Shown here: positions 1,138 to 22,026 of the stretch, one piece after another
How the letters are laid out: the number at the start of each line of letters is the position of its first letter
Position numbering within the stretch: position 1 is the stretch's first letter
Origin: a virus
IMG/VR virus record: IMGVR_UViG_3300019752_000023
Location: 1 to 22,223 of that record
Direction: 5' to 3' (one strand)
Length of the DNA stretch: 22,223 nucleotides
Translations under genes and position numbers: made by a program
Notes under the pieces: generated by a model
Seen by the model: only the letters and a program-made list of their open reading frames with translations
The model's database searches: none
What the model was told of the DNA's origin: nothing

Positions 1138-1138
1138 A

Positions 1139-1536: not shown

Positions 1537-1558
1537 ATTATAGCACCCAGTTCCTTAA
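1537..1558 (-). promoter_or_regulatory. Phage promoter P1 (TTAAG-N11-TATAAT) for the 107-aa/scaffold unit
   Basis: On the minus strand TTAAG (1558-1554) is followed after exactly 11 bases by TATAAT (1542-1537), preceded by TGC, which makes an extended -10. It lies in a 103-base gap between genes. The start point is predicted near 1530, leaving a leader of about 68 bases before the ATG at 1462. It belongs to a set of seven such sites in the window. Confidence 0.75.
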
Positions 1559-1565
1559 TTCAAGC

Positions 1566-3763: not shown

Positions 3764-3783
3764 TTATACTTCCTGTTAGCCAT

Positions 3784-3805
3784 ATTGTACCTAATCCTTA
3801 GTTAA
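3784..3805 (-). promoter_or_regulatory. Degenerate phage promoter P7 in front of the portal gene
   Basis: Minus strand TTAAC (3805-3801), 11 bases, then TACAAT (3789-3784). This keeps the spacing of the TTAAG-N11-TATAAT class with one mismatch in each box. It sits in the 54-base gap between the lysis peptidase and the portal, about 20 bases upstream of the portal ATG. The mismatches make it less certain than the other six. Confidence 0.4.
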
Positions 3806-3817
3806 ACTACACTTAAG

Positions 3818-4628: not shown

Positions 4629-4633
4629 CAGAC

Positions 4634-5317: not shown

Positions 5318-5323
5318 ACCTAC

Positions 5324-5824: not shown

Positions 5825-5827
5825 ATC

Positions 5828-6615: not shown

Positions 6616-7002
6616 CTATTCCTCCATTGCTTGAGCTATTAGCTCTTTTATATTTGGTTGTGGTATATCCACACTTACTATCTCTATACCATTATCTACG
6701 AAGAACATTGGAGTATGAGTTAGTGGTTTTATCTTGTGTAGTTCCTCTAACCTCTTCATATTATTCTCTTCTTGTTCCTTAGTGCATCTATCTGTTACTT
6801 GCTCTGCTATGTCTTTTCCTAGTAGCATATCTTTGAATGTGCTATTGCTATCTAGTGAACTCCATATCATTCTGAACAAATATATGTCTGTCTGCACTTG
6901 TGGTATGAGTACAATCTCTTTCTCATGCTCACACACTCCTTGCTGTGCCAGCTGTCTACACTGGTTACAGTTTGGATTAGTTACTACTATTAACTTGTTC
7001 AT
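6616..7002 (-). CDS. Thioredoxin-fold protein with CxxC active site
   Basis: From the ATG at 7002 this is a 128-residue protein. The first strand is followed by CNQC (Cys12, Cys15) at the place of the thioredoxin/glutaredoxin active site, and a TPMFFVDNG segment near residue 100 supplies the conserved cis-proline and following strand. The middle is a longer helical insert than in plain glutaredoxin. It has no signal peptide, so it would act in the cytoplasm. I chose the ATG at 7002 because it overlaps the stop of the upstream fibre gene as TAATG; the longer reading from 7017 would start with TTG. Its place among fibre genes suggests, but does not prove, help with cysteine chemistry of virion proteins or of the neighbouring PAS protein. 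Confidence 0.75.
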   Translation of the reverse strand: MNKLIVVTNPNCNQCRQLAQQGVCEHEKEIVLIPQVQTDIYLFRMIWSSLDSNSTFKDMLLGKDIAEQVTDRCTKEQEENNMKRLEELHKIKPLTHTPMFFVDNGIEIVSVDIPQPNIKELIAQAMEE

Positions 7003-8699
7003 TAGTCTGCTATACAACGAACTGACAATCCTCGAGACCTATGGGCAACACTTACCATAGCTGCACTTGAATAAAAAATAAGGTCAGCTGACCATTCAGC
7101 TTCAACGTCAGGATTGATACTCCAATAAAGCCCATAGAGGCCGTCAATTTCTAAAACACCATCAGTATACTTTCTCCTACCAGCAGCAACTAGTTTCAAT
7201 GCTGTAAACGCTTCATTGTAGTTCTCAAAACCTGCCTCTTCTGCCTCCCATTCGGATACTGTAGGAACACGAAAACCTGTTGGGCAAGGATTCCAATTTG
7301 CTTGTCTAATTGAACCATCAGAATCTCCTGTGCTCCAATCATATGGAGAATTTGGTGCTAGTATAAAATCACCATGACCTGGAGTATCTGTAGCACTTGT
7401 AAGTGTAGTAGTTGTTCCACTAGTTATATCCTCATGTCCATCTGCATCTCTACCCCATTGGAAGTAACTACCGTATGCTGCACTGTCATTATATGCTGTT
7501 GCTACACCTATCTGTACTGTACTTAAGTTTCTATCTAGCCATACTTTACCAGTAGTAGGTGATATTAATGTTCCATATGTATTTCCGTAACTATCAGTTG
7601 GGGCAAACGTTGCTTTAGTAGTACCATTAACTTCACCAACTCCACTATCTCCGTAAGTTGTACCAGTATGTCTAGCTTTGAATGTGTATGTTGTACTAAC
7701 TGATAATATACTATCAGGTACATCTATTGTAAGCTTGTTACTTGTATTACCTATTGAACTCCATACTAGTGTAGCTCCATCGTATATTTCCCAATCAGTG
7801 CTTAGGTGAGTATCTGTACCATTAGTTACACTAAATGCACTTGTTGTTAGTGTTGGTGTTTCTGGTACATCTGACGGACTTCCTGCTACTGTTAATGCTG
7901 GTGTATTAATGAAAGTATTTACTGTAGTCCCAATTACCTCTACATACTCACTAACTCCGTAAGTAGTACCTCTGTATCTTAATCTAAATGTATATGCTGT
8001 GTTTATATCCAAGGTGTTACTTGGTAGTGTTATTGTTTCTAAGTTAGCACTATCTGCTAAACTTTCATATACAACTACGCTATCACTATTTCTAACTACT
8101 TGCCAGTCGGTATTTAAATGAGTATCTGTACCATTAATAACATTAAAAGAAGAACCTGTAAGTAGTGGATTAAGTAGCACATCACTTGGTGTACCCTCAA
8201 CTGTTAAAGTTGGTGTTTCTATATATATGTTTGGTGTAACAACTGTTAATATATCACTATATGCACTTATATAATTTTGACTACCTTGTTGTACTCTTAT
8301 GTAATACGCTGTTAAAGGTAGCGGCAAAGACGGGGTGAACGTTAACAAGTTACTTGCACCCTCATAACTATCTACTATGTTAGTAAATGCTACATCTGTT
8401 GCAGCTTCCCATTTAACATAATCTTGAACTCCTACATAACTATCACTTGTAACATATGTAGCTGTTACTGCTCCAATAAAATCAGTTGTTCCATTTGCTG
8501 GGCTTACTACTATTGGGGCTACTATGTTACCTAGAGCGTTTACTTCACTCTTCTTAGCTAGTAGTATATCTGTACCACTTGCTGTACCTACAGCAACTCT
8601 ACCTTCGTCACCACCTGCAGCGTAGGCATCGTAACCTAACGTACCTTCTGGTAGTGAACCTTTAGTACCATCTGTATCTATATATAGTATCTTACTCAT
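7002..8699 (-). CDS. Tail fibre/receptor-binding protein with Fn3-like repeats and C-terminal FISUMP (lectin-like) domain
   Basis: The 565 residues fall into four parts. Residues 1-55 match the start of the neighbouring 286-aa protein (M..I..DT.G, then a GD.GRV..GT segment) and are probably a virion-attachment module. Residues 60-155 are a divergent fibronectin III-like unit. Residues 160-262 and 265-362 are two tandem repeats (each with a T.L(T)V.G.PSDV start, NGTDTHL.TDW, and TTYG). Residues 368-565 form a Fibrobacter-succinogenes-major-paralogous (FISUMP) domain, with VWLDRNL, CPTGFRVPTVSEW, and the terminal RGLSVRC motif, a C-type-lectin-like fold. This looks like a receptor-binding fibre tip. 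The domain is also a common target of diversity-generating retroelements, but none is visible here. The gene has its own phage promoter. Confidence 0.82.
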   Translation of the reverse strand: MSKILYIDTDGTKGSLPEGTLGYDAYAAGGDEGRVAVGTASGTDILLAKKSEVNALGNIVAPIVVSPANGTTDFIGAVTATYVTSDSYVGVQDYVKWEAATDVAFTNIVDSYEGASNLLTFTPSLPLPLTAYYIRVQQGSQNYISAYSDILTVVTPNIYIETPTLTVEGTPSDVLLNPLLTGSSFNVINGTDTHLNTDWQVVRNSDSVVVYESLADSANLETITLPSNTLDINTAYTFRLRYRGTTYGVSEYVEVIGTTVNTFINTPALTVAGSPSDVPETPTLTTSAFSVTNGTDTHLSTDWEIYDGATLVWSSIGNTSNKLTIDVPDSILSVSTTYTFKARHTGTTYGDSGVGEVNGTTKATFAPTDSYGNTYGTLISPTTGKVWLDRNLSTVQIGVATAYNDSAAYGSYFQWGRDADGHEDITSGTTTTLTSATDTPGHGDFILAPNSPYDWSTGDSDGSIRQANWNPCPTGFRVPTVSEWEAEEAGFENYNEAFTALKLVAAGRRKYTDGVLEIDGLYGLYWSINPDVEAEWSADLIFYSSAAMVSVAHRSRGLSVRCIAD

Positions 8700-8719
8700 T
8701 ATAATCCTTTTAATTGCCT

Positions 8720-8741
8720 ATTATAGCAAATCTTAACTTAA
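8720..8741 (-). promoter_or_regulatory. Phage promoter P2 (TTAAG-N11-TATAAT) for the FISUMP fibre gene
   Basis: Minus strand TTAAG (8741-8737), 11 bases, then TATAAT (8725-8720) with TGC before it. It fills the 50-base gap in front of the 565-aa fibre gene; the predicted start point near 8713 gives a leader of about 14 bases containing AAGGAT. Confidence 0.75.
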
Positions 8742-8749
8742 GTAATACT

Positions 8750-9610
8750 TTACCACTCTACTGTACTAGTTAGTGTACTGATGGTGTTTGTATTAGCTAC
8801 TAACGTAGCTCTTTCTACCAGTGTATACACTCCATTAGTAGTGCCATCAGTGTGGTTATCTGTATTACGATTATTCGTGTCTCTTGTATCAAGCTGAGCA
8901 GTTATTTCAGTATTTGCTAACTTAGTCTTCTCATTATCAGTATACTTATTAGTATCTGCGATACCTTCGTACAGTGCCTCAATGTCAGCGGCTGTTAGTG
9001 TGTTACTTACCATAGCGTACACCGTACCAGTCCATCTATACGTACTAGTATCACTTCCGCTTGTCTCATCAGCTACGACTACGTATATCTTACCAGCCTC
9101 TCCACTTGCAGGTAAGTCTGCGTATGTAGCTACTTCTACTACATCATCTACGTAACTAGGTAACTGTGCTGCATCTATCAACCCTAACGCATTCAGTCCT
9201 ACATACCCATCAGGTGTATTCTTATTAGCTTTAAGTTCTACATCCAGTACATCAAGTTTGTCACTTAGTAGCGTTAAGTCTAGTACCTTTAGCTGCTCAC
9301 CACCAACTAACGGCGTAACTAGCTCTACCGTAGTACCATCTACTACCGTGTATTCAGCTATGCTACCATCCACCAGTACTAGTACCTTACTTGAGTCTGC
9401 CACACTTATACTAGCTTGTCCTGCTGTGCCTACAGTTATTATGAATGCCTCTACGTCGTCTACTAACGCAAGTACCTTATTCTCTGTACCTGTACCTATG
9501 TACACTCTACCGTTATCACCTGTATCTGACAGGTCAATACCGAACTCACCTCTAGCTAGAAGCTCTCCTAACCCTAGTCCTTGCGTATCTACTCTTCTAA
9601 TTCTTGCCAT
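8750..9610 (-). CDS. Tail fibre-associated protein sharing its N-terminus with the FISUMP fibre
   Basis: This 286-residue protein starts with about 55 residues related to the start of the 565-aa fibre. The middle (about residues 140-205) carries the widespread phage-fibre segment with AAQLPSYVDDVVEV and ADLPASGEAGKIYVV, followed by a TYRWTGT strand. The C-terminal part (about 210-286) is Thr/Asn-rich and contains the ADIEALYEGIADTNKYTD motif, also found in altered form in the 876-aa fibre. No chaperone or enzyme domain is seen. It starts nine bases after the 876-aa gene, with AAGGAG at good spacing, and is probably a fibre or adaptor of the same structure. Confidence 0.75.
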   Translation of the reverse strand: MARIRRVDTQGLGLGELLARGEFGIDLSDTGDNGRVYIGTGTENKVLALVDDVEAFIITVGTAGQASISVADSSKVLVLVDGSIAEYTVVDGTTVELVTPLVGGEQLKVLDLTLLSDKLDVLDVELKANKNTPDGYVGLNALGLIDAAQLPSYVDDVVEVATYADLPASGEAGKIYVVVADETSGSDTSTYRWTGTVYAMVSNTLTAADIEALYEGIADTNKYTDNEKTKLANTEITAQLDTRDTNNRNTDNHTDGTTNGVYTLVERATLVANTNTISTLTSTVEW

Positions 9611-9619
9611 CTATACTCC

Positions 9620-12250
9620 TTATGCCACTGTAAAATCAGGGCTCTTACTAATAGTACCCTCAACGTCTGCTTGATAATGTAAGTCTGCTTGTATCCCGTA
9701 TATAGCTCCTGCTACATTCTCGCTTAGTAGTATAACTTGTGCAAGTACTACAGTATCCGGCTCTAGTAAATCGAACGCTTGCGCATCACTACACTCTAGT
9801 ACGATATGTTCACCAGGCACTTCTAAGCCTGTATAAGTGTAAGTCATATCTACATCTGTAGTAGCAGCTGTTAAACTATCACCTTGACTGTGCCCTCTAG
9901 CTATTACGTAACTGAATCTCCACGTTACCTGAGCTCCTGCACTTTGAGCATCTGCACACATGAAGTGGATATGTGGGTACGCATCTGTACCTAACGCATA
10001 ATCATGATTTACGTGGTAAGCTACCGGTAACTCTTCGCCGGCGGCCCACTGTGACATTACTATTCCGTTACCTATATCTGCCCATGCTGGTTCGTTAATT
10101 GCTCCACCTCTTGCAGGGATGAATTCTGCAATCAAGTCCTTCCATATCAATCCGTGCATCGGTATACCACCAACTTGTAGCTTATGGTCTGATGTTGCGT
10201 TCGGTAAGTCGGCTATTAGGTTTACTCTAAGCGTATCACTATCTGCACTAGAATTACTAAGACCTGTAATGGCACTAATCGGATGTTGGTCTACAGCATC
10301 CCTTGCTCTTAACTGATCGTGTCTTGTAGCTAATGGTGTATTAGTGTTTGATGCGTTTTCGTCACCAACTACATACGATACAGTCTTATTACTGTTTGAC
10401 GTAGTACTTGCGTACACCCTTATTCCGTACCTAGCTGTAGCACTAACTACCTTTACTGGTTCTGTTACTTCGAACTCTATGTGACCTACCGTAGTTGTTA
10501 GCTCTGGACTAGTCGATGTGAATAGTGTAGTCTCTACTCCAGTCCCGTCCTCTTTCATGAACCCTTCGTATCGTAATCTAGTGTCTCCGTTGTCATTATC
10601 TACACTACCGTAGAAGTTAGCTGTCCACTTACCTGCGTCAATTACCGTAGTTCTTATTGGTAAGCTGAACAGGTACGTCTCCATTAGCTGCTCACCTCCA
10701 CCACCAGTAACTACAGCCGCTACAGTAGTTTCTGTAACGTCTGGTGTGTAACTTAATGTCTTGTAGTTCCCATCAACCGTTGATACTACATCACTGAAGT
10801 ACAACGCAGCAGCGTATCCACCACTACCAGCAGCTATCGTTAAATCACCACTACCAAGCAGTGTGTCCCCGTTTACACTCTTAATATTAGTTTGGTTCAC
10901 TAGCTGATCTTGCTTTGTACCTATCTGAGCAGCTGTAGTTGCAGCGAAGTTCGGATCGTCACCTAGTGCGTTAGCTAACTCGTTTAACGTATCTAACGTA
11001 CTTGGAGCCGCACCTACTAATCCTGCTATCTTTGCATCCACTTCCGCACTTGTATCTGCATCAGTTATCCCATACCCTGCTAATGTAATAGCATTGTCAG
11101 CTTTACCGTTTAGTGCTGTTTGTGTCGCATTACTTACTGGCTTGTTGATATCACTAGTATTATCTACTTGATCTAACCCTACTTGTGACTTAGTCACACT
11201 GTGTGGGTTATCTGTTCGTAACGTATGTGCGTTATTACTTGCTGCACTTATCTCCAGTAAATCTAAATCTACATGTTGTGTTACCGCTATATGCCCAACT
11301 TTGGTTTTATCTATTGTAGTGTACTTTTCTGTACCTATAATACTCTCATACAGTGCTGCTATTTCACCTGCAGTCTGATCGGCTGTTGCTCCAGCTTCCA
11401 CCCCACTTAAGTCAACACCGACTGCGCCTGCTATGTCCAAGTTAGTAAGGGCCACGTTACCGTCCCTACCGTTAAAAGAGCTAACTACTCCTGTATTTAC
11501 TAAGTCCGCGAAGTTGGTTAACGCTTCTCCGAACTCCTGAGCTGTTCCCGTATAACCGTACTTAGTTACATAGGAGTACGCATCATCACCATTCCTAACT
11601 TCGAACCCTCCTATGTTTATAGTCTCATCGGCATCTCCATACATCACGTACGTATCAGTCTCTCCCGGTGTCTGGAAGTCTCCTTCTGGATCAGTAGTAC
11701 CTACAGCCGTAACATGGTGTACTCCTTGTCCTTGGTCTCCTTTAGCACCTTTCTGTCCTTCAACGCCCTGAACTCCTTGAATCCCTTGTATACCTCTAGG
11801 CCCATCTTCTCCTTGGTCTCCTTGGTCACCTTTAACTACTCCAGTATTATGGCTAGTCCCGTCACTGAATACTATAGTAATTGTGTTATCGTTATTATTA
11901 GTAACGCTTGTAACTGTTAAGTTATCTCCATCAACTCCGTCATTACCTTGTGGTCCAGTAGCTCCTTGTAACCCTGTGTCACCTTGTTCGCCTTTAGCAC
12001 CTCTTACAGGGTCACTAGTAAACACCGTACCATCACTGAACGTCAATGTAATACTGTAATCTGGGTTACTTTGCACATCCGTAACTGTTACGCTATCGCC
12101 TTTATCACCTGTATTACCTTGTACACCAACAGGTCCTTGATTGCCTTGTGGGCCTTCTGGACCTATGTCGCCTTGCGGACCTTGACTTATGTTCTCATCT
12201 ATTATTATTTGCTTTACAAACTCTGTAAAGTCTCCTACTATTTGTGCCAT
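9620..12250 (-). CDS. Large collagen-like tail fibre protein
   Basis: The 876 residues start with a short helical segment and three Gly-X-Y collagen-like tracts (about 24-52, 84-108 and 140-177). The tracts are separated by two related 40-residue inserts (each with SxTxTxV, a TLTF/TIVF strand and SDGT). Residues 177-221 are a module shared with the 142-aa protein upstream. The middle (about 255-470) has standard fibre motifs such as FNGRDGNV, LDQVDNTSD and SVNGDTLLGSG. The C-terminal ~350 residues look beta-rich, with a PHIHF segment near residue 760, and are probably the receptor-facing globular part. Collagen-like tracts form trimeric rods in phage fibres. The ATG overlaps the previous stop (TAATG). 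Confidence 0.85.
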   Translation of the reverse strand: MAQIVGDFTEFVKQIIIDENISQGPQGDIGPEGPQGNQGPVGVQGNTGDKGDSVTVTDVQSNPDYSITLTFSDGTVFTSDPVRGAKGEQGDTGLQGATGPQGNDGVDGDNLTVTSVTNNNDNTITIVFSDGTSHNTGVVKGDQGDQGEDGPRGIQGIQGVQGVEGQKGAKGDQGQGVHHVTAVGTTDPEGDFQTPGETDTYVMYGDADETINIGGFEVRNGDDAYSYVTKYGYTGTAQEFGEALTNFADLVNTGVVSSFNGRDGNVALTNLDIAGAVGVDLSGVEAGATADQTAGEIAALYESIIGTEKYTTIDKTKVGHIAVTQHVDLDLLEISAASNNAHTLRTDNPHSVTKSQVGLDQVDNTSDINKPVSNATQTALNGKADNAITLAGYGITDADTSAEVDAKIAGLVGAAPSTLDTLNELANALGDDPNFAATTAAQIGTKQDQLVNQTNIKSVNGDTLLGSGDLTIAAGSGGYAAALYFSDVVSTVDGNYKTLSYTPDVTETTVAAVVTGGGGEQLMETYLFSLPIRTTVIDAGKWTANFYGSVDNDNGDTRLRYEGFMKEDGTGVETTLFTSTSPELTTTVGHIEFEVTEPVKVVSATARYGIRVYASTTSNSNKTVSYVVGDENASNTNTPLATRHDQLRARDAVDQHPISAITGLSNSSADSDTLRVNLIADLPNATSDHKLQVGGIPMHGLIWKDLIAEFIPARGGAINEPAWADIGNGIVMSQWAAGEELPVAYHVNHDYALGTDAYPHIHFMCADAQSAGAQVTWRFSYVIARGHSQGDSLTAATTDVDMTYTYTGLEVPGEHIVLECSDAQAFDLLEPDTVVLAQVILLSENVAGAIYGIQADLHYQADVEGTISKSPDFTVA

Positions 12251-12678
12251 TAACTACTCCATTCTATTGTATCTACAGCTTCTGTATAACCAACTATATT
12301 AGCTTCTAAGTCACCACCAACCAGTGTGAATTCGTACACAGGTGTCAGTCCTATGTCGCCTTGAAGGCCTCTTTCACCTTGATCACCTTTTTGACCATTA
12401 CGTACACTGATGTGCCCTAAGTTAACCAACTCATCAGCATCACCATATATAGTATATGTATCTACCTCACCTACAGTACTGAAGTCACCTTCAGGATCAG
12501 TGGTGTTAGTAGGTGTTACATGGTGTACGCTTACACCTTGCTCGCCTCTAGCTCCTTGCTCACCGTCAATACCTGCCGGCCCTGCTACAGTGCTTTTAAA
12601 CGTACTAACGTTATTAAGTAAGAATTCCTCTGCTGCTTCTTCTATCTTATCGTGTATATTGAATATAATAGTACTCAT
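12250..12678 (-). CDS. Short collagen-like fibre protein
   Basis: From the ATG at 12678 this is 142 residues. It has an N-terminal helix (about 8-30), a short Gly-X-Y tract (33-48), a module at 48-95 closely related to residues 177-221 of the 876-aa fibre (VHHVT, TTDPEGDF, YGDADE, VRNG), a second Gly-X-Y tract (96-110), and a C-terminal strand region starting GLTPVYEF that resembles the end of the 173-aa protein. I chose this ATG because it overlaps the previous stop as TAATG and has AAGGAG five bases upstream; the GTG six bases earlier would lie on the Shine-Dalgarno sequence. Probably a fibre subunit or adaptor. Confidence 0.8.
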   Translation of the reverse strand: MSTIIFNIHDKIEEAAEEFLLNNVSTFKSTVAGPAGIDGEQGARGEQGVSVHHVTPTNTTDPEGDFSTVGEVDTYTIYGDADELVNLGHISVRNGQKGDQGERGLQGDIGLTPVYEFTLVGGDLEANIVGYTEAVDTIEWSS

Positions 12679-13199
12679 TACCACTCCTTCTCAGTAGCAT
12701 CTGCTACAGTTACATTCACACTGCTTCCATTTATGTCTGCATAAGAAGCTACATCATAAACTAGATTACCTGCACCGTCTACATCAAACTCTACTACAGG
12801 AGTAAGCCCGTTGTACCCTGATGCGCCTCTAATTCCCTGCAAGCCGCGTAACCCCTGCAAACCTTGTAGTCCTCTTATCCCTTGTATACCTTGCGCACCT
12901 TGTGGACCTACAGCACCTTCTAATCCGTCCTGTCCGTCTTGTCCATCAGCACCTGCATCACCTTTTGGTACCGTTAAGGTAGTACCATCCCACGTCACAT
13001 TACTACCAGGTGCTCCGGTAGCTACCATCATATTGATGATGTTTAGCATGTTAGCCAATGTACCATCTGTAATAGCTGTATTAATATCCTCAATAGCACC
13101 TATTTGTTCTGCTACGGATCGTACTACATCATACTTACTATCTATCTCCCTATCAACAGCTAAGTCAACCGGAGATGTAAAACTAGTCTGCCGTCTCAT
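12678..13199 (-). CDS. Collagen-like fibre/adaptor protein
   Basis: This 173-residue protein has a non-repetitive N-terminal part (1-78), an unbroken Gly-X-Y tract of about 17 triplets (80-130), many of them G(L/I)QG or G(L/I)RG, and a C-terminal strand region with GLTPVVEF that is shared with the 142-aa protein. The N-terminal part probably attaches to the tail, the tract forms a triple-helical rod. The ATG immediately follows the stop of the adaptor-like gene. It is the first of three consecutive collagen-like genes. Confidence 0.8.
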   Translation of the reverse strand: MRRQTSFTSPVDLAVDREIDSKYDVVRSVAEQIGAIEDINTAITDGTLANMLNIINMMVATGAPGSNVTWDGTTLTVPKGDAGADGQDGQDGLEGAVGPQGAQGIQGIRGLQGLQGLRGLQGIRGASGYNGLTPVVEFDVDGAGNLVYDVASYADINGSSVNVTVADATEKEW

Positions 13200-13829
13200 C
13201 TACACCCATCCTTTCTCTTGCACATTTCTACTAAGCGGACCATCTGCAGTCATTACACCCAAGGTCTTAGTTCTTTGTACACTTGCTTCAAACCTTTGAT
13301 AGTGCGTGTTATTCTCTGCTTGTATATTACCATCAATCGAACCATGTCCTCTATACCCTATGTAGTGCAACAACGCCTCTACTAACTGTACTGGTAGATC
13401 TATATCACTAGCTAGCGTCTCTGGTGTGTTCACTATCAATGTCGGCTGTTTTACATATATCACACTGATATACGCACCACTAGTAGCCACAGGTACTTGA
13501 ATCTTATTCCAACTAATCGTCATAATACTCAACGGATCATCTTCTTTATTAATGCTAATCTCTGTACCGTCTTCCTCATACGCTGCACTTATGTACATCA
13601 AGTCATTAGGTAACTTGTACACTGTATCACTTATTCTCTCATAGCTATCATTGTTATCGGTCACCCTACCTAGCTCTATGATGACTTCTTCTGTATCAAG
13701 AGGGAACCTCTTATACAGCTCTATCATCCCTAAGTTAATGAATGATATAACAGAGTCAGTATCATCCTTAACTGCTAACTTTTTTAACTCGCCTTTAACA
13801 GCTAAGTCTATTACTTTTTCTACTGTCAT
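13200..13829 (-). CDS. Head-tail adaptor/connector-like structural protein
   Basis: The 209 residues have an N-terminal helical region (about 1-42) with the segment VISFINLGMIELYKRFPL, then a strand-rich middle and a helical C-terminal half containing a conserved-looking PVQLVEALLHYIGYRGHGS segment (about residues 142-162). This pattern (helical INxGMxELYKRF start, late helix before a Tyr/Gly turn) recurs in phage structural proteins that act as adaptors below the portal or tail-tube proteins. It follows the large terminase and has its own phage promoter. Assignment is by pattern and position; no enzyme motif is visible. Confidence 0.6.
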   Translation of the reverse strand: MTVEKVIDLAVKGELKKLAVKDDTDSVISFINLGMIELYKRFPLDTEEVIIELGRVTDNNDSYERISDTVYKLPNDLMYISAAYEEDGTEISINKEDDPLSIMTISWNKIQVPVATSGAYISVIYVKQPTLIVNTPETLASDIDLPVQLVEALLHYIGYRGHGSIDGNIQAENNTHYQRFEASVQRTKTLGVMTADGPLSRNVQEKGWV

Positions 13830-13848
13830 TTCTATCCTTTAAATCCCC

Positions 13849-13870
13849 ATTATAGCAATTTTATCCTTAA
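13849..13870 (-). promoter_or_regulatory. Phage promoter P3 (TTAAG-N11-TATAAT) for the adaptor/fibre genes
   Basis: Minus strand TTAAG (13870-13866), 11 bases, then TATAAT (13854-13849) with TGC in front. It lies in the 52-base gap after the large terminase gene. Predicted start near 13842; AAAGGAT precedes the ATG at 13829. Confidence 0.75.
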
Positions 13871-13881
13871 TCCACTATTAA

Positions 13882-15609
13882 CTAGAACACTGTTGAGCAG
13901 CCCGATCCATGATCCTCATCATGATTGAACCTAGCCCATACACTATCTATAGCCTCTTCATCACCGAACTCTCCACTTACCTGTTCACTCGGTAACCTAA
14001 TATCAATCATACCCAGCTGACTAATACAGTCAATCGCATCATCATGTCCTGCAAATCCGCTATATGTAGTGTACTTCAACTGCTTCATAGTCTCTTGCAT
14101 ATCTGGCGTATCAGATAGTTGTTGTGGAAACCACATCTTCTTATTCTGGAACTGTGGTAACATATACCTGAATCTCTCATGTTTATTAGTACCTGTACCC
14201 TTACTCAGTATCCCCTCTCTAGTAATTGGAGCACCTTTCTGTTTAGCAAAGCTGAAGTACTGATTCCTCTTCTGCATCATCTCTTTCAGTGCAAACACGT
14301 GAGCTTTCTGCTGTCCATCTACCTCAATCCCAACTTCAATATGATTTCCGTATCTACCCCACGTCTGTAGCATCCTAAACAACTCATTATACTGCTCTTG
14401 TATTCCTTGTCTTCTTACACACACATCCAGCAGGAAGTAATCCGTATTATGACTCACAGCCCATACCATCAATCCACTGAAGTCACTCTTAGCCTCACTT
14501 GTAGTTGTGAAGTCAGTAGTTATGTACAGTGTATACGCACCTAAGTTCTGCATGATATTCTCTCTATTATACTCTTGAATCAAGTTATCAGGTACCATTC
14601 TATCTTCTTCATTTGCCATCTTAAGCATACGCTCTTGGTTGAACGCTCTAGTAGTATTACTCTTAACTGCTTGCAGATACTGCTCTTTAACTGCTTCGTA
14701 CGGATGCATCTCTACCCATGCCCCTCTGAACTCCTCTTCAGTAGTATTCTCATCTATCTGCTCACATATCGGTATAGCTACAGGCGTATACGACCCATCT
14801 AGTAGTGTTTTAACATTTGGATCTCTCATATGGAATGGTGTAAACACGTTAATTATCTTACCTTTACCTCCACCTTTCAGTGCATTGATCGCATCGGCAT
14901 TAATCATATCCTCTAAGTTACCCATTATCGTCTCCGAGTAAGCAGCTGCCATATTTGGTATGATATCATCGAACAGTATCCAATCCGGTCTATGTGCACC
15001 ATGATTCGACCTAACTCCCCTGATATTACCAGAACTTGCTCCCATAGTCCTTAACAGGAACACTCTCTTATCTAGCTTCTCATTAGCCTTAACCGGCTTT
15101 CTGACCCACTCAGCCTCTGTCTCTGTAAACCTCATACTCTCGAAGTAACTCTTACAGAACTCACTATCTTCACACATCGATCTCAATGCAAGCGCCATTA
15201 CACGCCCCCCACCTTGCGCACTAGCACCTACAGCTAGTATGAAGTATATTGGTCCATAATTTGGAACCTCACCCTTAACCGCACAGTAAACTGGCAGGAA
15301 CGCTGTAATCACACTCGACTTACCTAATCCTCTACTCATCATAATAGCTATACGTTTATTATTAATGTTAATCTTATCCTGTACATCTTTACTATACGGG
15401 TAGTTCTCTCTAGTTATGTTACCGAACAGTAAGTCTACTATCCAATAATGCACCAACGGTGAATCGAACTCGAAGTCCGCTCCATTAACTAACCTCATTA
15501 TATTGAAGAAGTCAATTGCATCAGCACTAGGTATGTAGTTCCTGAACTCCAAGTCTATGTTGAGCAACGCTTCTTCTATATCAAATACGTTATCTTTATG
15601 CTCAGCCAT
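13882..15609 (-). CDS. terL: Terminase large subunit
   Basis: This 575-residue protein is the packaging motor ATPase and nuclease. The Walker A loop is SRGLGKSS at about residues 92-99, and Walker B is WILFDD at about 210-215. The C-terminal nuclease domain shows the expected acidic residues: Asp in YITTDFTTT (about 365), Glu in GIEVD (about 428) and Asp in GHDDAIDC (about 522). Length and order match complete TerL proteins. The SRGxGKS form of Walker A is common in TerL of short-tailed phages. It overlaps the small subunit gene by 8 bases and is followed by a promoter for the structural genes. Confidence 0.95.
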   Translation of the reverse strand: MAEHKDNVFDIEEALLNIDLEFRNYIPSADAIDFFNIMRLVNGADFEFDSPLVHYWIVDLLFGNITRENYPYSKDVQDKININNKRIAIMMSRGLGKSSVITAFLPVYCAVKGEVPNYGPIYFILAVGASAQGGGRVMALALRSMCEDSEFCKSYFESMRFTETEAEWVRKPVKANEKLDKRVFLLRTMGASSGNIRGVRSNHGAHRPDWILFDDIIPNMAAAYSETIMGNLEDMINADAINALKGGGKGKIINVFTPFHMRDPNVKTLLDGSYTPVAIPICEQIDENTTEEEFRGAWVEMHPYEAVKEQYLQAVKSNTTRAFNQERMLKMANEEDRMVPDNLIQEYNRENIMQNLGAYTLYITTDFTTTSEAKSDFSGLMVWAVSHNTDYFLLDVCVRRQGIQEQYNELFRMLQTWGRYGNHIEVGIEVDGQQKAHVFALKEMMQKRNQYFSFAKQKGAPITREGILSKGTGTNKHERFRYMLPQFQNKKMWFPQQLSDTPDMQETMKQLKYTTYSGFAGHDDAIDCISQLGMIDIRLPSEQVSGEFGDEEAIDSVWARFNHDEDHGSGCSTVF

Positions 15610-16342
15610 CTACTATCTCCGCATCCAGTACTACTGCATTGCCTAGCTTCTGTGCATCTTTCATACTGTACCCATTCTCCAGCATTTTTCTCTGGTTATT
15701 AGCTAGTACAGCTAGTTGCTCATTCAACTGTGTCTGCATATCTTTAGTCTCTGCGTTCATACCTACACTCAATTCTATCTGAGCATTCTCTGGTGGTTTA
15801 ACATGTGTCAGTAGCTTATCAGCAGCACTGATTCTATCCTTACTGTAAGCAGCATCTGTCATCTCCTTAGCTAATACAGCTACAGCCTCGTACCTTGACG
15901 ACTGGAACATTAGATGCAATGGCATATCACTCTGCGTTAGTATCTTCTGTACCATTGGAGTACGTCTGAATCTACTAGCTGCATTAGTCAGCTCTCTATA
16001 TTCCATACTCTCAGTATCTACGCCAATCCTATCGATAACGAACTGATCACTTGCTCTAGCTCTTCTATACGCCTCTGTAACGTTTTCTTCTGATTCTAGA
16101 TACGCACAGAACTTCAACGCATTGATGTAGTTCCTCATCGAATACTGACCTTCTAGCATTACATTACTATATGTAAGCAAGTTATCCATGAACTCATCAC
16201 CATTGAACATCGGATCACTATTAGCTTCATTAAGCATCCTAGCTGTCTCTTCTGTAATCGTATTCTTCTTAGCCGGGAATAATTCCTTCAGCTTCTCTAC
16301 TGTATACTCAGTAGTCTCTCTTTTTACTATACCTAAGGCCAT
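15602..16342 (-). CDS. terS: Probable terminase small subunit
   Basis: At 246 residues, this mainly helical, soluble protein lies directly before the large terminase and overlaps it by 8 bases, the usual place of TerS, which recognises the packaging site and feeds DNA to TerL. I see no clear helix-turn-helix signature; the central region (about 60-175) is Arg/Glu-rich helix and the last ~50 residues are polar with a coiled-coil-like stretch. The start ATG overlaps the stop of the 31-aa gene (TAATG). The call rests on position and size. Confidence 0.65.
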   Translation of the reverse strand: MALGIVKRETTEYTVEKLKELFPAKKNTITEETARMLNEANSDPMFNGDEFMDNLLTYSNVMLEGQYSMRNYINALKFCAYLESEENVTEAYRRARASDQFVIDRIGVDTESMEYRELTNAASRFRRTPMVQKILTQSDMPLHLMFQSSRYEAVAVLAKEMTDAAYSKDRISAADKLLTHVKPPENAQIELSVGMNAETKDMQTQLNEQLAVLANNQRKMLENGYSMKDAQKLGNAVVLDAEIVDG

Positions 16343-16437
16343 TAGTAACTCACTATACCTAGGTCAATCATTAGTAGTAGTCCAATAATTGAAGCTGCTA
16401 ATATAGCTATCTTGGTTTGCTCTTCTAACCCTATCAT
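16342..16437 (-). CDS. 31-residue single-pass membrane peptide
   Basis: The reading frame from the ATG at 16437 encodes 31 residues: a short charged start followed by about 20 hydrophobic residues (ILAASIIGLLLMIDL region). It lies exactly between two genes, starting three bases after the stop of the 88-aa gene (TAAATG) and sharing its final base with the TerS start (TAATG), so it is part of the translated chain and not random. Function unknown. Confidence 0.6.
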   Translation of the reverse strand: MIGLEEQTKIAILAASIIGLLLMIDLGIVSY

Positions 16438-16440
16438 TTA

Positions 16441-16707
16441 TTACCCTTTACTTTTCTGTGCTTTAATACCATTATCATTCAGGTACTTAACCACATAGTC
16501 ATCACTGTCGAGTACTAACTCAACACCATTATCCACAGCTAGTCTATAAATCCACTCTGCTTCATCTTCTTGTCTATTATCTGTAGTATAATCACTACTT
16601 TGTATTGTTCTGATATGCTGGAACGCTTCGTCTACTGTATAGATACCAAACTCAACGCTACCGTCAAGTCTTACTATACCAGCTATACCACTACTATCTT
16701 TAATCAT
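16441..16707 (-). CDS. Hypothetical 88-residue protein
   Basis: This small acidic soluble protein has strand-rich N-terminal and helical middle segments, without a domain I recognise. It has AAGGAT before the ATG and its own phage promoter (P4) immediately upstream, so it starts the transcript that also includes the 31-aa peptide and the terminases. Confidence 0.65.
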   Translation of the reverse strand: MIKDSSGIAGIVRLDGSVEFGIYTVDEAFQHIRTIQSSDYTTDNRQEDEAEWIYRLAVDNGVELVLDSDDYVVKYLNDNGIKAQKSKG

Positions 16708-16727
16708 AGTTTATCCTTTAATACCTA

Positions 16728-16749
16728 ATTATACAGTACCAAGTCTTAA
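16728..16749 (-). promoter_or_regulatory. Phage promoter P4 (TTAAG-N11-TATAAT) for the terminase operon
   Basis: Minus strand TTAAG (16749-16745), 11 bases, then TATAAT (16733-16728). It fills the 49-base gap in front of the 88-aa gene. Here the bases before the -10 are CTG, not TGC, so conservation lies in the two boxes and their spacing. Confidence 0.7.
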
Positions 16750-16756
16750 ACTACGG

Positions 16757-16888
16757 TTAGTGTTCCTTATTCTTGTGCTTGGCTTTCCTACTATACTTCG
16801 TCTTATCCGGAACACTTTTAGTTCTCAGATCAATCTCTCGTCTAGCAAATAGCTCTTTATTGTAGTCTCGTTTTTGTTTAGTACTCAT
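16757..16888 (-). CDS. Very basic 43-residue protein
   Basis: From the ATG at 16888, which overlaps the previous stop as ATGA, this is a 43-residue protein rich in Lys and Arg with few hydrophobic residues, so a nucleic-acid contact is possible. A longer reading from 16939 would overlap the previous gene by 55 bases and is less likely. No domain recognised. Confidence 0.5.
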   Translation of the reverse strand: MSTKQKRDYNKELFARREIDLRTKSVPDKTKYSRKAKHKNKEH

Positions 16889-17238
16889 ATACCTATATCC
16901 TTGCCCATAGATGCTTCGACTTCTGCCATCTCTTTGCACAACAGCTCGTGTGCTTTAGCTTCTCTAATACGCACCACCTCAGATTTAGTAATTCTGTCAA
17001 CTAGTACTTGTAACAGTTTATCAACTATGCTTACGATATCTTGTAGCTCCTTATGGCATAATGGAACTACCTCATCATTTAGCATAACATTCCTTTCATT
17101 TGATGACAGCCTAACCACATCTGTTTTTGTGTAGTACTGCAGTAACTCTCTATCAGCAGTAGCTAGATACTTATCTGCATCATCTAAGTACACCACATCG
17201 TAGTGTGATACGAATTCTATTTTTTCTTGTATATTCAT
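16885..17238 (-). CDS. Hypothetical 117-residue helical protein
   Basis: A soluble, charged protein with no membrane segment. Most of it looks helical and the region from about 50 to 100 has heptad-like hydrophobic spacing. AAAGGA precedes the ATG, which overlaps the previous stop as ATGA; its own stop overlaps the next start in the same way. It belongs to the tightly coupled small-gene block between the ParB-like gene and the terminases. Function unknown. Confidence 0.65.
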   Translation of the reverse strand: MNIQEKIEFVSHYDVVYLDDADKYLATADRELLQYYTKTDVVRLSSNERNVMLNDEVVPLCHKELQDIVSIVDKLLQVLVDRITKSEVVRIREAKAHELLCKEMAEVEASMGKDIGI

Positions 17239-17450
17239 TTTATTTCCTTTGTGCCATATTTAGTATGCTCGTAGCTATACTCTTCCTCTTCTCTCTGTAA
17301 CCTAAGTAACTTACTTCTAGTTACTACATATTTCCTAACCTCACTCTTCGTATAGAACCAATTCGGTAACCCATTCATTAGGTCTAGTTTATCCAGCTCA
17401 TAGCTAGTATCTATATCCTCTTCTATATCCTTACTCACTGTTAGTTGCAT
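17235..17450 (-). CDS. Hypothetical 71-residue protein
   Basis: A small charged protein with an acidic start and a basic, Glu/Arg-rich helical end. It overlaps the upstream GIY-YIG-like gene by 20 bases and the downstream gene by 4 (ATGA). A weak GGGTAG precedes the ATG, which suggests dependence on translation of the upstream gene. No domain recognised. Confidence 0.55.
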   Translation of the reverse strand: MQLTVSKDIEEDIDTSYELDKLDLMNGLPNWFYTKSEVRKYVVTRSKLLRLQREEEEYSYEHTKYGTKEIK

Positions 17451-17808
17451 CTACTACCCTTTCATAAGCCTCTATAGCTATATCCTTATCTAGTATAAAG
17501 CATTCAGTCATACCACTCCATTTCTTACCATCACAGCTAATCCTGTCATCTATGAACTCTTGATGTAAGCTAGTCTCCTTAGTAAATACGTCATCTACTT
17601 CCCTATCTCTCACTATCTTAATAATCGGTGTACATCTATAGCAATCGAAGTAGCTACCAATAATCTGCAGCATCCTCTCCTTACTACTATGCCCACTGGC
17701 CTTACCGAATTTGTACGTAGGTTTATCATAACCCTCTACCCATATCTCCATTAGGTACAATCGCTGTACCTTCTCTTTACCTAACTTTCTACTTACATTG
17801 AATGTCAT
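17431..17808 (-). CDS. GIY-YIG/T5orf172-like small nuclease-fold protein
   Basis: This 125-residue protein has the order of elements expected for the MUG113/T5orf172 branch of the GIY-YIG fold: a first strand LYLMEIWV, a second strand YKFGKAS with the following Arg/Met helix (KERMLQI), a PIIKIV strand, and a helix with Glu and LHQEF (about residues 77-85). In the family, Tyr, Arg and Glu of these elements form the nuclease site. It may act in host DNA breakdown or be a remnant of a homing-type enzyme. The ATG overlaps the previous stop (TAATG). Assignment is by motif order only. Confidence 0.5.
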   Translation of the reverse strand: MTFNVSRKLGKEKVQRLYLMEIWVEGYDKPTYKFGKASGHSSKERMLQIIGSYFDCYRCTPIIKIVRDREVDDVFTKETSLHQEFIDDRISCDGKKWSGMTECFILDKDIAIEAYERVVDATNSE

Positions 17809-18332
17809 TATCTGTGTATTCTGATAAGTGTAGTTACTTCTTCTACCAGATTATGTGGTACTATCATCTCATAACCACCATCTTCTGCACGTGTTGGTAC
17901 TATACTTAGGGCGTGTAACTTAGCTGACAGCATAGCCCATCTTTCTTCGTACGTATCCTGCATACTATAGCGACTAGGACAAAATGTAAGCTTCTGAGGC
18001 TCTTCATTATATTCTGCAATATGTTTAGCTATTCTAGCACTTAAGTACTGTGTCTCATTACTTTTAGGTTTCACCACTACTGACCTAATCTTTTTATGTC
18101 TTATCGTAGTTGCTAGGATGTCATCTGTATTAAACATGAACCCTTCGTAGTTACCTAGGTATACAACACCGCTTTCAGTGTATACTACAAACCCGGTACC
18201 ATCTTCTAGTTCCTCTACCACTCTATATTCTACGAACTCACTAGTAGTTATCACTACATCCTCTATAGCTAGGTCTACCATTATCGGTAATCCTAGTAAC
18301 TCTTTTGTCTTATTCTTTATTAACTTTATCAT
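17808..18332 (-). CDS. Hypothetical 174-residue protein
   Basis: A soluble protein with a strand-rich N-terminal half (about 18-90, many Val/Tyr/Glu strands) and a helical middle that includes LSARIAKHIAEYNEE. I see no catalytic signature or membrane segment. It follows the ParB-like gene by 11 bases and is coupled to the GIY-YIG-like gene by TAATG. Function unknown. Confidence 0.65.
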   Translation of the reverse strand: MIKLIKNKTKELLGLPIMVDLAIEDVVITTSEFVEYRVVEELEDGTGFVVYTESGVVYLGNYEGFMFNTDDILATTIRHKKIRSVVVKPKSNETQYLSARIAKHIAEYNEEPQKLTFCPSRYSMQDTYEERWAMLSAKLHALSIVPTRAEDGGYEMIVPHNLVEEVTTLIRIHR

Positions 18333-18343
18333 ATTATACCTTA

Positions 18344-19057
18344 TTATTTTTCTTCTACTTTAAACTTGTAGTTAGCCAGCTCCGCATATTTCATCCTAGT
18401 TGCTATGTTATCTGTAGTTATATTATCCATCGCAACTGAAGTGTAGTACCATGCCTTACCCGCTTCTGTCTTTATATACGCATCGGATGACCATTCTACT
18501 TTATTGCTAGTATCTTCAGTGACGTTCATCTCTTCAGTCGTCTTAATAACCTTAGCTATACCAGTCACCTTGTTAGTTGTAATGGTTATACCTTTAGTAC
18601 TGTCGTACACTTTTATACTATTACCGTTAAACAATGGATCTATGTACTCCGGTCTGTGCTTAGCTATGTATACTGCATTCTGTAGCGTCCTGTGACCTAC
18701 TGCCCATTGTTTAGCTATATCACTTTGCTTACCTTTGGTAGTCTGGTATTGTTTTAGTGCGCTCATTACTTTCTGCGTATCTGTTAGGTTCCTTCTAGTA
18801 TTGAGGCTCTTTACAATCTTAGCCACAGTAGCGTAATCTAGTTCTGGACTAAGTACTCTAGTTGTTATAGGAGTATCAGTAGCTACGCAAGCTATCTGTC
18901 TACATCTACCGTCTACAACCTTCTCTCCAGTTCCGTCATCCCACAGTACAATATCATCCTGCAACCCGTTAGCTCTTATATCTTCAGTGAGTGCTAGTTG
19001 TTCCGCTTCGCTGGCTAGCGCTACTATACCAGCTAATTCATGTATCTCGTATGTCAT
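18344..19057 (-). CDS. ParB-like DNA-binding protein
   Basis: The 237 residues start with a ParB/Spo0J-type N-terminal domain: an ALTEDIRANGLQDDIVLW segment (about 22-39) and VVDGRCRQIAC (about 47-57), the equivalent of the conserved G-x-R-R nucleotide-binding box, followed by NTRRNLTDTQK (86-96). A helix-turn-helix candidate is at about 111-133 (DIAKQWAVGHRTLQNAVY). The C-terminal ~90 residues are unlike ParB. Phage ParB-like proteins act as nucleases, transcription regulators or partition factors; which applies here is not clear. Its promoter overlaps TGCGTA repeats, so it could regulate itself. AAGGAG lies before the ATG. Confidence 0.75.
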   Translation of the reverse strand: MTYEIHELAGIVALASEAEQLALTEDIRANGLQDDIVLWDDGTGEKVVDGRCRQIACVATDTPITTRVLSPELDYATVAKIVKSLNTRRNLTDTQKVMSALKQYQTTKGKQSDIAKQWAVGHRTLQNAVYIAKHRPEYIDPLFNGNSIKVYDSTKGITITTNKVTGIAKVIKTTEEMNVTEDTSNKVEWSSDAYIKTEAGKAWYYTSVAMDNITTDNIATRMKYAELANYKFKVEEK

Positions 19058-19068
19058 TTATACTCCTT

Positions 19069-19201
19069 ATGCGTATATTATACGTTAATTGTGCTTAATA
19101 AATACTTAACCGCATAAATGCGTACTTGTATTCGGTAGCTTTGTTATATATAACTATCTATATGTTATGCGTAGCAAGTCTCAGGTACGCATTTGTGCGT
19201 A
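19069..19201. repeat. TGCGTA repeat array upstream of the ParB-like gene
   Basis: TGCGTA occurs at 19070, 19119, 19168 and 19196 on the + strand (steps 49, 49 and 28), and its reverse complement TACGCA at 19186. Two sites form inverted repeats: CGCAT-AA-ATGCG at 19111-19122 and TACGCA-TTTG-TGCGTA at 19186-19201. The first copy abuts the -10 of promoter P5. The arrangement looks like an operator or centromere-like cluster; a natural candidate ligand is the ParB-like protein encoded directly downstream. Confidence 0.6.
19077..19098 (-). promoter_or_regulatory. Phage promoter P5 (TTAAG-N11-TATAAT) for the ParB-like gene
   Basis: Minus strand TTAAG (19098-19094), 11 bases, then TATAAT (19082-19077). 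Predicted start near 19070, leaving a leader of about 13 bases with AAGGAG. The -10 is embedded in CGTATA-T-TATACG and touches a TGCGTA site, so a protein bound there would block it. Confidence 0.7.
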
Positions 19202-19259
19202 TTTAACTTAAACGAAGCTTAACCTCATGTAGGGAATTTTTATATTTTTTGGTATGTGA

Positions 19260-20045
19260 TTAGGCACCTATAGTGTACCTTTCATACATAGTCCAAGCAA
19301 GTCTTTTACCTTGTAGGAACCTTCTTAGCTCTTTGCTTATAGTAGCTTTCTTTCTAGTGTTGCCTAGAGCTAACTCTTGATCTACTAACCACTGTGCGGC
19401 ACTTCCACAGCTAACAAATTCCTGTCCTGATACTACGATACTCTTACCTGTAGCCTTTACCATATCTTCTTTTGATACAAATTTCATACCAGTCACATCT
19501 TTATAGCCATCGTAGGATTTATTACTGTTCTGTAGTCGTATAGACTCTTTTTCCACATACCTACTGAATTCAGTCTTTTGCTTACCTAGCTCTGTTTTCG
19601 TTTTCTCCAGCTCCTTTAGTAACCTCTTTACTTCTTTCTTTTCTTTTAGTACTTCCTTTTTAAGTGCACTCATTTTAGTTCTGAACTCCTCGCGTAGTTT
19701 AGTATGATGATCCCTGCCGCCTGTTGTTTTATAGTACTTTATATTTTGTTCAGCTGTACACCATCTTAAGTTATCCACGCTATTGTTAGTCTTGTCCTCA
19801 TCTATATGATCTACCTGGTGCAGACTTTCTGGGTTTGGTATAAACTGTTGAGCAACAAGTCTGTGCACTAACTTATACGTCTTATTACCATCTGCGTCTG
19901 TAAGGTTTACGTTAATGTAACCACTAGCGTGCTGTGACCCTATTAGGTGTATAGAGCCATTTTTCTTGTAACTTCTAACCTGTCCTTTAGTGTCAACTGT
20001 ATATCTATTTTCGTACCCCTGTATCCATTTTTCGTTGCTATTCAT
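19260..20045 (-). CDS. HNH homing endonuclease (NUMOD4-HNH, coiled coil, C-terminal DNA-binding domain)
   Basis: The 261 residues contain a NUMOD4 domain (about 1-50, WIQGYENRYTVDTKGQVRS), an HNH_3 nuclease domain (about 55-107) with LVHRLVAQQFIPN, DHIDEDKTNN and NLRWCTAEQN, giving His61, Asp79-His80 and Asn88 as probable catalytic or metal residues. A long Lys/Glu coiled coil follows (about 118-172), and a C-terminal domain (about 200-258) with a NUMOD1/HTH-like pattern and the terminal G-K-R-L-A-W-T motif. This is a complete free-standing homing endonuclease of the phage type, spreading into related phage genomes by cutting an unoccupied site. AAAGGAC lies before the ATG. Confidence 0.9.
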   Translation of the reverse strand: MNSNEKWIQGYENRYTVDTKGQVRSYKKNGSIHLIGSQHASGYINVNLTDADGNKTYKLVHRLVAQQFIPNPESLHQVDHIDEDKTNNSVDNLRWCTAEQNIKYYKTTGGRDHHTKLREEFRTKMSALKKEVLKEKKEVKRLLKELEKTKTELGKQKTEFSRYVEKESIRLQNSNKSYDGYKDVTGMKFVSKEDMVKATGKSIVVSGQEFVSCGSAAQWLVDQELALGNTRKKATISKELRRFLQGKRLAWTMYERYTIGA

Positions 20046-20676: not shown

Positions 20677-20933
20677 TGACTATTACAACAGCAATCGGTG
20701 GAGACGCAACTCACCAGAAAGTAGCACTATTATATATCAAGCAGGGATTAAGCCCTATAGACGCAATGAATACACTTAAACTGTGTAACTTTGTGGTTAA
20801 CATCGGTGGCACTAAATACAAAGTTAAGGCGTCATCAGTTGCTAGTATTATGACTGGCTTTAGGCTAATTGAACATCAAGTAACTAGTGGCAGAGCTACT
20901 TGTACTAAGACAAAGGGATTACAATGGAAATAA
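20676..20933 (+). CDS. Hypothetical 85-residue basic protein
   Basis: A soluble, moderately basic protein. Its central segment has Lys/Tyr-rich strands. The ATG overlaps the previous stop (TAATG) and AGAGGAG is upstream. No domain recognised. It overlaps the following 34-aa frame by 10 bases. Confidence 0.6.
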   Translation: MTITTAIGGDATHQKVALLYIKQGLSPIDAMNTLKLCNFVVNIGGTKYKVKASSVASIMTGFRLIEHQVTSGRATCTKTKGLQWK

Positions 20934-21028
20934 TTGGTACAATATCAGCAGGATTGGTAGTATGCATGTTGGGAACTATATGTTACATGAGTTTCTATAT
21001 TATCGATAAAGGAGGCAATGATGTTTGA
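20924..21028 (+). CDS. 34-residue membrane peptide
   Basis: An ATG at 20924 opens a frame of 34 residues, with a hydrophobic stretch from about 3 to 27 that would cross the membrane once. It overlaps the end of the 85-aa gene and runs into the ribosome site of the next tiny frame. Its place in a chain of overlapping frames supports translation. Function unknown. Confidence 0.5.
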   Translation: MEIIGTISAGLVVCMLGTICYMSFYIIDKGGNDV

Positions 21029-21068: not shown

Positions 21069-21211
21069 TGGTAGGGCAACGACTAACTTATCAGGAGCAT
21101 AATATTGCTATCATCAAAGCACTACTAGCTGATATCACTCAGCCTGTAGTAGAGGCTACTCCAAGTGAGGAATACATAGCAGGCATTGACTTGTCTGCAT
21201 ATCAAAGCTAG
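21068..21211 (+). CDS. 47-residue hypothetical protein
   Basis: From the ATG at 21068, which overlaps the stop of the 16-aa frame, this encodes 47 residues with a short helix (about 8-24) and an acidic tail. The TAG stop lies inside the left arm of the terminator hairpin. No domain recognised. Confidence 0.5.
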   Translation: MVGQRLTYQEHNIAIIKALLADITQPVVEATPSEEYIAGIDLSAYQS

Positions 21212-21240
21212 CTCTTCGGAGTTAGTTTATTTTTTCTTTC
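21204..21240 (+). terminator. Rho-independent terminator of the first rightward operon
   Basis: CTAGCTC (21208-21214), a TTCG tetraloop, and GAGTTAG (21219-21225) form a 7-bp stem with one G-U pair, which outer A/T pairs extend to about 10 bp, followed by a T-rich run to about 21240. The C(UUCG)G loop is unusually stable. The stem includes the stop codon of the 47-aa gene. Confidence 0.85.
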
Positions 21241-21312: not shown

Positions 21313-21391
21313 CAACCACTCTCATCACACTTCGTGTGTATCTGATGATGGTATACACATTGTAGTACGTACTGTAGTTTGTATTGAGTGG
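21313..21391 (+). ncRNA. Structured non-coding element, copy 1, with alternative hairpins
   Basis: Order of parts: CAACCACTC (21313-21321); hairpin A, CACAC (21326-21330) with GTGTG (21334-21338) around TTC; hairpin B, TGTGTAT (21335-21341) with ATACACA (21353-21359), which cannot form together with A; the palindrome AGTACGTACT (21364-21373); and GAGTGG (21386-21391), which can close the unit by pairing with CCACTC (21316-21321). Copy 2 at 21650 has the same plan with different paired bases. Whether it acts as RNA or DNA is unknown. Confidence 0.45.
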
Positions 21392-21649
21392 ATAGGCTTA
21401 CAGTGACATTGCATTTTGTTAACTTTATGTGAGTTTTCATTGCAATTTGTCATTATTGTATACTTTCTATACAGTTTCGAGTTGAGGTCAGTGTTGAGTT
21501 GTATATTTTCTATACAGTTATATGTGGAAATGTAGGCTGGAGTTGTATAGTTTCTATACTCCTTAACTACTTCTTAACCTTACTTCAACTCCATCCCTGA
21601 TACACCAACATACACTACAACTACTTTGCAACTAACTACAATCCGTATA
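21392..21649. other. Non-coding spacer holding an operator-like repeat array
   Basis: No gene or coupled frame is seen here. The main content is the three GTATA-N5-TATAC repeats. The rest is AT-rich, and T- and A/C-rich tracts follow the third repeat. Confidence 0.5.
21456..21560 (+). repeat. Three TTGTATA-N-TTTCTATAC repeats, 43-44 bases apart
   Basis: Copies start at 21456, 21499 and 21543. Each reads TTGTATA, one variable base (C, T or G), then TTTCTATAC; each has the inverted repeat GTATA-N5-TATAC. The steps of 43 and 44 bases are about four helical turns, so all copies face the same side of the DNA. Each also contains a TATAC(A/T) that could be a -10. Binding sites for a dimeric regulator are likely. 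Confidence 0.6.
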
Positions 21650-21733
21650 CAACCACTCACTTACATCAACCTTCGGTTGTATCTATTGATGATACATTCA
21701 ACCGAGCCACTACTATAGTAGTTCCGTTGAGTT
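21650..21733 (+). ncRNA. Structured non-coding element, copy 2, with alternative hairpins
   Basis: Parts in the same order as copy 1: CAACCACTC (21650-21658); hairpin A, CAACC (21667-21671) with GGTTG (21675-21679) around TTC; hairpin B, TCGGTTG (21673-21679) with CAACCGA (21699-21705), helped by TATC/GATA inside; a perfect 14-base palindrome ACTACTATAGTAGT (21709-21722); and GTTGAGT. A further pairing of TCAAC (21698-21702) with GTTGA (21726-21730) competes with B. It lies just upstream of the second rightward gene cluster, so a leader-RNA role is possible. Confidence 0.45.
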
Positions 21734-21748
21734 TACTACCAAGTAAAC
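21731..21748 (+). promoter_or_regulatory. Perfect hairpin in the leader of the 82-aa gene
   Basis: GTTTACT (21731-21737), loop ACCA, AGTAAAC (21742-21748): a perfect 7-bp stem 29 bases before the ATG at 21778 and 17 bases before its AAAGGGG ribosome site. There is no T run, so it is not a terminator. It may be a protein-binding or mRNA-stability hairpin. Confidence 0.4.
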
Positions 21749-21777: not shown

Positions 21778-22026
21778 ATGATAGAATTTACTATAGCAAT
21801 CGTTATAGCAATCATACTATGGAATCTGCGTACAGCATTCTACAACAAAGCCGATGTGTTCAAAGAGCAAGTCGAAATCTCCGTAGCCACTAACAAAGTG
21901 GACTTACAAGACGACTACGATGAGCTCATCAAGCTAATTCAAGAGAAGAAGCAAGCACAAGGCGGTAAGTGGCATTATATGAAAGACATAGAGAAGCTTA
22001 TGCACAATGACGAAAAGAGTGAGTAG
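21778..22026 (+). CDS. Small membrane-anchored protein, unknown function
   Basis: The 82 residues begin with a hydrophobic membrane segment (about 3-17) and continue as a charged helical part with a coiled-coil-like section (about 25-60). AAAGGGG lies five bases before the ATG. The layout resembles the 98-aa protein that opens the first rightward cluster: N-terminal anchor, cytoplasmic helical tail. Sequences are too different for me to call them paralogues. Codon choice, with more G/C at third positions, looks somewhat different from the leftward genes. Function unknown. Confidence 0.65.
   Translation: MIEFTIAIVIAIILWNLRTAFYNKADVFKEQVEISVATNKVDLQDDYDELIKLIQEKKQAQGGKWHYMKDIEKLMHNDEKSE

Follow-up and report, generated by a model that had tools for sequence, protein, structure and literature searches.

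The two diverged copies of a structured element in the window, the 22,223-nucleotide contig of an uncultivated virus that was analysed here, are probably a pair of N4-type early DNA hairpin promoters read by an injected virion RNA polymerase (vRNAP). The reading is built on sequence comparison, namely on the hairpin anatomy, the compensated changes between the copies, the schitovirus-like genes of the window, the vRNAP of one relative, the RNAPII gene order of another, and a family-wide excess of comparable hairpins on the early strand. Most likely, the hairpins add a further example to a known kind of promoter and do not represent a new RNA switch; what had appeared to be a novel RNA switch would become a testable promoter prediction, and N4-type hairpin promoters would now be placed in an uncultivated lineage beyond the named schitovirus genera.

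The hairpin pair and its setting

To judge by its genes, the window virus is an N4-like, Schitoviridae-like phage. The portal matches PHROG 1216 (E 6.5e-195), which is schitovirus-type, and TerL is nearest to Schitoviridae homologues (Acinetobacter XC38, Pseudomonas Littlefix and Klebsiella Pylas; 32-34% identity); an N4-type portal and terminase are thus combined with the divergent late/early gene order of that family. As in N4, the late genes run leftward (minus strand, 1-20045) and the early genes, which are small, run rightward (plus strand, from 20380). An HNH endonuclease gene (19260-20045, minus strand) sits at the late/early junction and is missing from the part of G001, a relative described below, that aligns with the window. 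Searches of the window for tRNA and tmRNA genes returned none.

An intrinsic terminator on the plus strand (21205..21238; 10-pair stem, TTCG loop, T tract) closes the preceding small-gene operon, and is followed by a 566-nt non-coding region, extending up to the gene at 21778, which holds both element copies. That gene, the first after the second copy (21778..22026, plus strand), is an open reading frame for an 82-aa predicted membrane-anchored protein that matched no family and for which no relative was found. A sigma-70 promoter scan gave fewer hits than in shuffled sequence.

The original prediction of two diverged copies with landmarks in a common order (21313-21391 and 21650-21733, both plus strand) was borne out, all landmarks lying at or very near their predicted positions. 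Copy 1 comprises CAACCACTC (21313-21321), CATCA (21323-21327), the putative promoter hairpin E1 (21326..21338; CACAC at 21326-21330, a TTC loop, and GTGTG at 21334-21338), the spacer TATC (21339-21342), TGATGAT (21343-21349), an arm available for alternative pairing, ATACACA (21353-21359), the palindrome AGTACGTACT (21364-21373), and TTGAGT (21384-21389). In copy 2 the order is CAACCACTC (21650-21658), CATCA (21664-21668), the putative promoter hairpin E2 (21667..21679; CAACC at 21667-21671, TTC, and GGTTG at 21675-21679), TATC (21680-21683), TGATGAT (21687-21693), a downstream CAACC (21699-21703), and the palindrome ACTACTATAGTAGT (21709-21722), followed by TTGAGT. In both cores a stem of five perfect pairs thus closes a 3-nt loop and is followed by TATCT; on the template strand the two hairpins read CACAC-GAA-GTGTG and CAACC-GAA-GGTTG. 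With the 4-nt spacing of N4, the spacer and predicted start region would occupy 21339..21343 for E1 (+1 at about 21343-21344) and 21680..21684 for E2 (+1 at about 21684-21685). The corresponding downstream leaders would be 21344..21391, carrying TGATGAT, ATACACA and AGTACGTACT, and 21685..21733, in which RNA folding predicts a stable stem-loop around ACTACTATAGTAGT.

E1 and E2 are the sole two C-TTC-G hairpins in the window, and both lie on the early strand. When the 566-nt region was shuffled 20,000 times with its dinucleotides preserved, two 5-bp hairpins of this kind never arose, and two C-TNC-G hairpins with perfect stems of 5 bp or more arose once. As had been proposed, the bases differ between the copies yet the pairing of the upstream with the middle strand survives: all five pairs form in each copy, two of the five are changed on both sides, and none is broken, whereas sliding the pairing by 1 to 3 columns yields no compensated pair. 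Compensated changes between two sequences alone are not a strong statistic, and no DNA or protein relatives of the window early region were found among phages or in IMG/VR, so the covariation rests on the two copies. The proposal of a duplicated, structurally constrained control element acting at the DNA level, with compensated changes, is supported.

Early promoters and RNA polymerases of related phages

At each of the three N4 early promoters the DNA forms a hairpin whose centre is at -11 and whose GNA loop contains a sheared G:A; the hairpins are extruded by gyrase-made supercoils and stabilised by host SSB, and the injected vRNAP binds the template strand (PMC4496689). N4-like promoters have stems of 4-5 bp and loops of 3 nt (PMC3715699; PMC6027278), with the template of N4 P1 reading ...AAAA-GTTGC-GAA-GCAAC (PMC12633501). 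By analogy, each short inverted repeat of the window would be extruded as a small DNA hairpin by host gyrase-driven negative supercoiling, with 5 bp in the stem and GAA in the template-strand loop, and a vRNAP injected with the genome would bind it. Rightward transcription would then start about 4-5 nt downstream of the hairpin and, by synteny with a relative, would be directed at the operon carrying the phage RNAPII gene. What we infer here is that the hairpins extrude, that a vRNAP binds them, where transcription starts, and that the window virus carries a vRNAP.

A simple rule, C-TNC-G closed by a stem of 4 or more pairs, was applied to the first 16 kb of N4 and returned exactly P1 (90), P2 (557) and P3 (4546), the last directly before the RNAPII gene gp15 (RNAP1). 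Twelve schitoviruses (L030, L131, L132, L255-L261, L263 and L264) together have, in their first 9 kb, 39 C-TNC-G hairpins on the early strand versus 2 on the opposite one, against an expectation of 1.1 for each strand; 9-kb controls under the same rule gave one match in T7 and zero in lambda. The rule, with a stem of 5 bp or more, therefore finds known and predicted early promoters family-wide, with a strong strand bias. In several schitoviruses the number of hairpins is above the three of N4 (Pollock 7, JA-1 6).

The closest relative, G001 (IMGVR_UViG_3300019768_000019), matches window positions 127-19249 at 92-98% DNA identity (95% over the late genes) and then diverges. Right after the equivalent intergenic region it encodes a 704-aa T7-like RNA polymerase that matches N4-like RNAP PHROGs, and one chain (L021:3721-5835) covers the regions of both N4 gp15 and gp16. 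RNAPII itself lies outside the window; its position is given by synteny with G001. Both hairpins lie on the plus strand, after the divergent late cluster, and by this synteny would be ahead of the RNAPII gene. The lineage is N4-like yet not a typical member, in that the RNAPII of G001 is a single chain and not the gp15/gp16 heterodimer; it is uncultivated, of estuarine or aquatic type, and outside the named schitovirus genera. Single-chain RNAPIIs of about 680-705 aa were also observed in G021, G025, G027 and G028, whereas N4 and the named schitoviruses have the heterodimer.

A vRNAP gene is found neither in the window nor in its two closest relatives, the contigs of these relatives being fragments and the window contig ending before the expected position of such a gene. 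The relative G003 does encode one (PHROG 2206), in which the catalytic motifs are conserved, its DGxTNG, K..Y and D motifs aligning with the N4 mini-vRNAP; a phmmer search against the PDB gave no match, and the identification comes from the PHROG and the motif alignment. The G003 vRNAP is split into two ORFs (L025:5202-8945 and 9574-16635; 1247 and 2353 aa) separated by a gap of about 630 nt, in which no Rfam intron was found. Separately, the portal gene of the relative G002 (L023:14833-17904) is interrupted in frame by an insertion of about 365 aa that shows intein features (LGDG, DSDG, ending HN-T) and is missing from the window and G001.

The C-TNC-G hairpin is absent, even with one mismatch, from the 7-kb early region of G001, the sequence of which is unrelated to that of the window, and four more distant relatives with a single-chain RNAPII have essentially none. 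These lineages use either altered hairpins or promoters elsewhere. Three strong hairpins with 3-nt loops (CAG, TAT and ACT; 6-8 bp stems) were observed before RNAPII in G001 (L021, reverse coordinates 20778-20945), and one of them, GTACC-ACT-GGTAC, just before the gene, might be a variant promoter.

The second pairing and other explanations

The element had been proposed to be a bistable switch, acting in RNA or DNA, in which the middle strand pairs within either an upstream or a downstream hairpin, alternating between the two, and expression depends on which of them forms. A second pairing can indeed be drawn in each copy: downstream of each hairpin lies a sequence nearly complementary to the middle arm together with TATC, and the arm has changed in step (CACA versus CAACC). 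RNA folding of both copies, moreover, favours other middle-strand pairings over the short hairpin. The two second pairings are, however, barely above chance when compared with shuffled downstream sequence (p about 0.05-0.065 in each copy), and their geometry differs, with GTGTGTATC pairing with ATACACA over a continuous 7 bp in copy 1, but TGTATC with GATACA over 6 bp in copy 2, plus a bulged GGTT/AACC. Nor is the alternative hairpin enriched among the 39 comparable hairpins of other schitoviruses. The suggestion that both copies be folded gave a divided result: as RNA, copy 2 beats its shuffles (z -3.5), but copy 1 does not (z -0.45). A start as in N4, 4 nt after the stem, would give an RNA without the middle strand, so that an RNA switch could act only on read-through transcripts. 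With the first hairpin alone fitting an N4 vRNAP promoter, we consider a switch very unlikely, and the riboswitch, leader or replication roles suggested for the element are unnecessary to explain the data. There is likewise only a slim chance that an N4-type promoter hairpin has here gained a competing second hairpin, making the early promoter a self-shutting conformational switch in DNA (or in read-through RNA).

T7-type phages use intergenic RNA hairpins, and the copies could in principle act as hairpins in long early transcripts, serving RNA processing, stability or attenuation, for example as 5' leader stems or as sites for RNase III. The stable stem-loop downstream in copy 2 (RNA fold of 21684-21738, z -3.45) is consistent with this, as is a terminator-like scan that also flags 21667-21679. 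The copy 1 leader (21343-21397), however, folds no better than shuffles, neither hairpin is followed by a T tract, and for an RNase III site a stem of 5 bp around a fixed C-TTC-G loop is short; we judge such a role improbable to a high degree.

Between the copies lie three near-identical 17-bp dyads, TGTATAnTTTCTATACA (21457-21473, 21500-21516 and 21544-21560), at a spacing of 43/44 bp, the third ending TATACT; they are possibly operator or iteron sites. The copies, which flank the dyads, might accordingly be thought part of a replication origin or repressor-operator region, and the 566-nt non-coding region as a whole is unusually structured (z -4.4). An array of two exact and two near copies of the dyad also occurs in a non-coding region of contig L265, from a phage with a T7-like RNA polymerase. 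L265, a T7-like phage, has no C-TNC-G hairpin, which indicates that dyads and hairpins are separable, and the window hairpins have matching promoters in other schitoviruses in which the dyads are missing. An origin or operator role for the copies therefore appears remote, and promoter hairpins are the preferred reading. A search of IMG/VR with a degenerate DNA pattern of the element gave, among the matches listed, only one that formed the hairpin stem, in an apparently unrelated contig.

Comparison with known elements and promoters

Like riboswitches and other Rfam families, the element is structured, intergenic and upstream of a gene; unlike them, it has no Rfam match, with nothing at the gathering threshold and nothing with E below 4 at a relaxed threshold, in agreement with the original view that it belongs to no known riboswitch class. 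The CTGATGA of copy 1 brought a hammerhead ribozyme to mind; this was rejected, as inspection by eye showed no GAAA core and Rfam gave no match.

The similarities to N4 P1-P3 are extensive. Both window hairpins have a perfect stem of 5 bp (within the range of 5-7 bp considered, N4 stems being of this length or longer), a 3-nt loop that is GNA on the template strand, a C-G closing pair and a 4-nt spacer, and both lie on the early strand, between early genes, before the RNAPII operon (by synteny); with P1 they share an identical GAA template loop, closing pair and stem length. The differences lie in the flanking bases and in the arrangement. Template position -8, which is G in N4 and contacted by R904 of its polymerase, is A in copy 1 and C in copy 2; the spacer is TATC and not TTAT/TTTT; in both copies TATC is followed by T, in place of a G 4 nt after the stem, and neither copy has the GG of N4 at +1. 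The two window copies also fall within one 566-nt region as an extended duplicated unit of about 80 nt.

With the predicted promoters of LUZ7/LIT1, the Pectobacterium CB1 group, Pollock, JA-1, EE36phi1 and G7C, the window hairpins share both the hairpin rule and the strand bias. Many of the 39 family hairpins have TGG where transcription would be expected to begin, together with an inverted repeat at that presumed start, unlike the window copies, which lack TGG; several family hairpins, however, also deviate from a G start. Position -8 is likewise variable in several, as in Pollock (CTCAC-TTC-GTGAG), and an alignment that is loose in that loop shows no conservation of R904 in either EE36 or G003; -8G is therefore treated here as a feature of the N4 group and not as family-defining. 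That -8G and the GG start are both lost suggests a joint drift in the specificity of promoter and polymerase.
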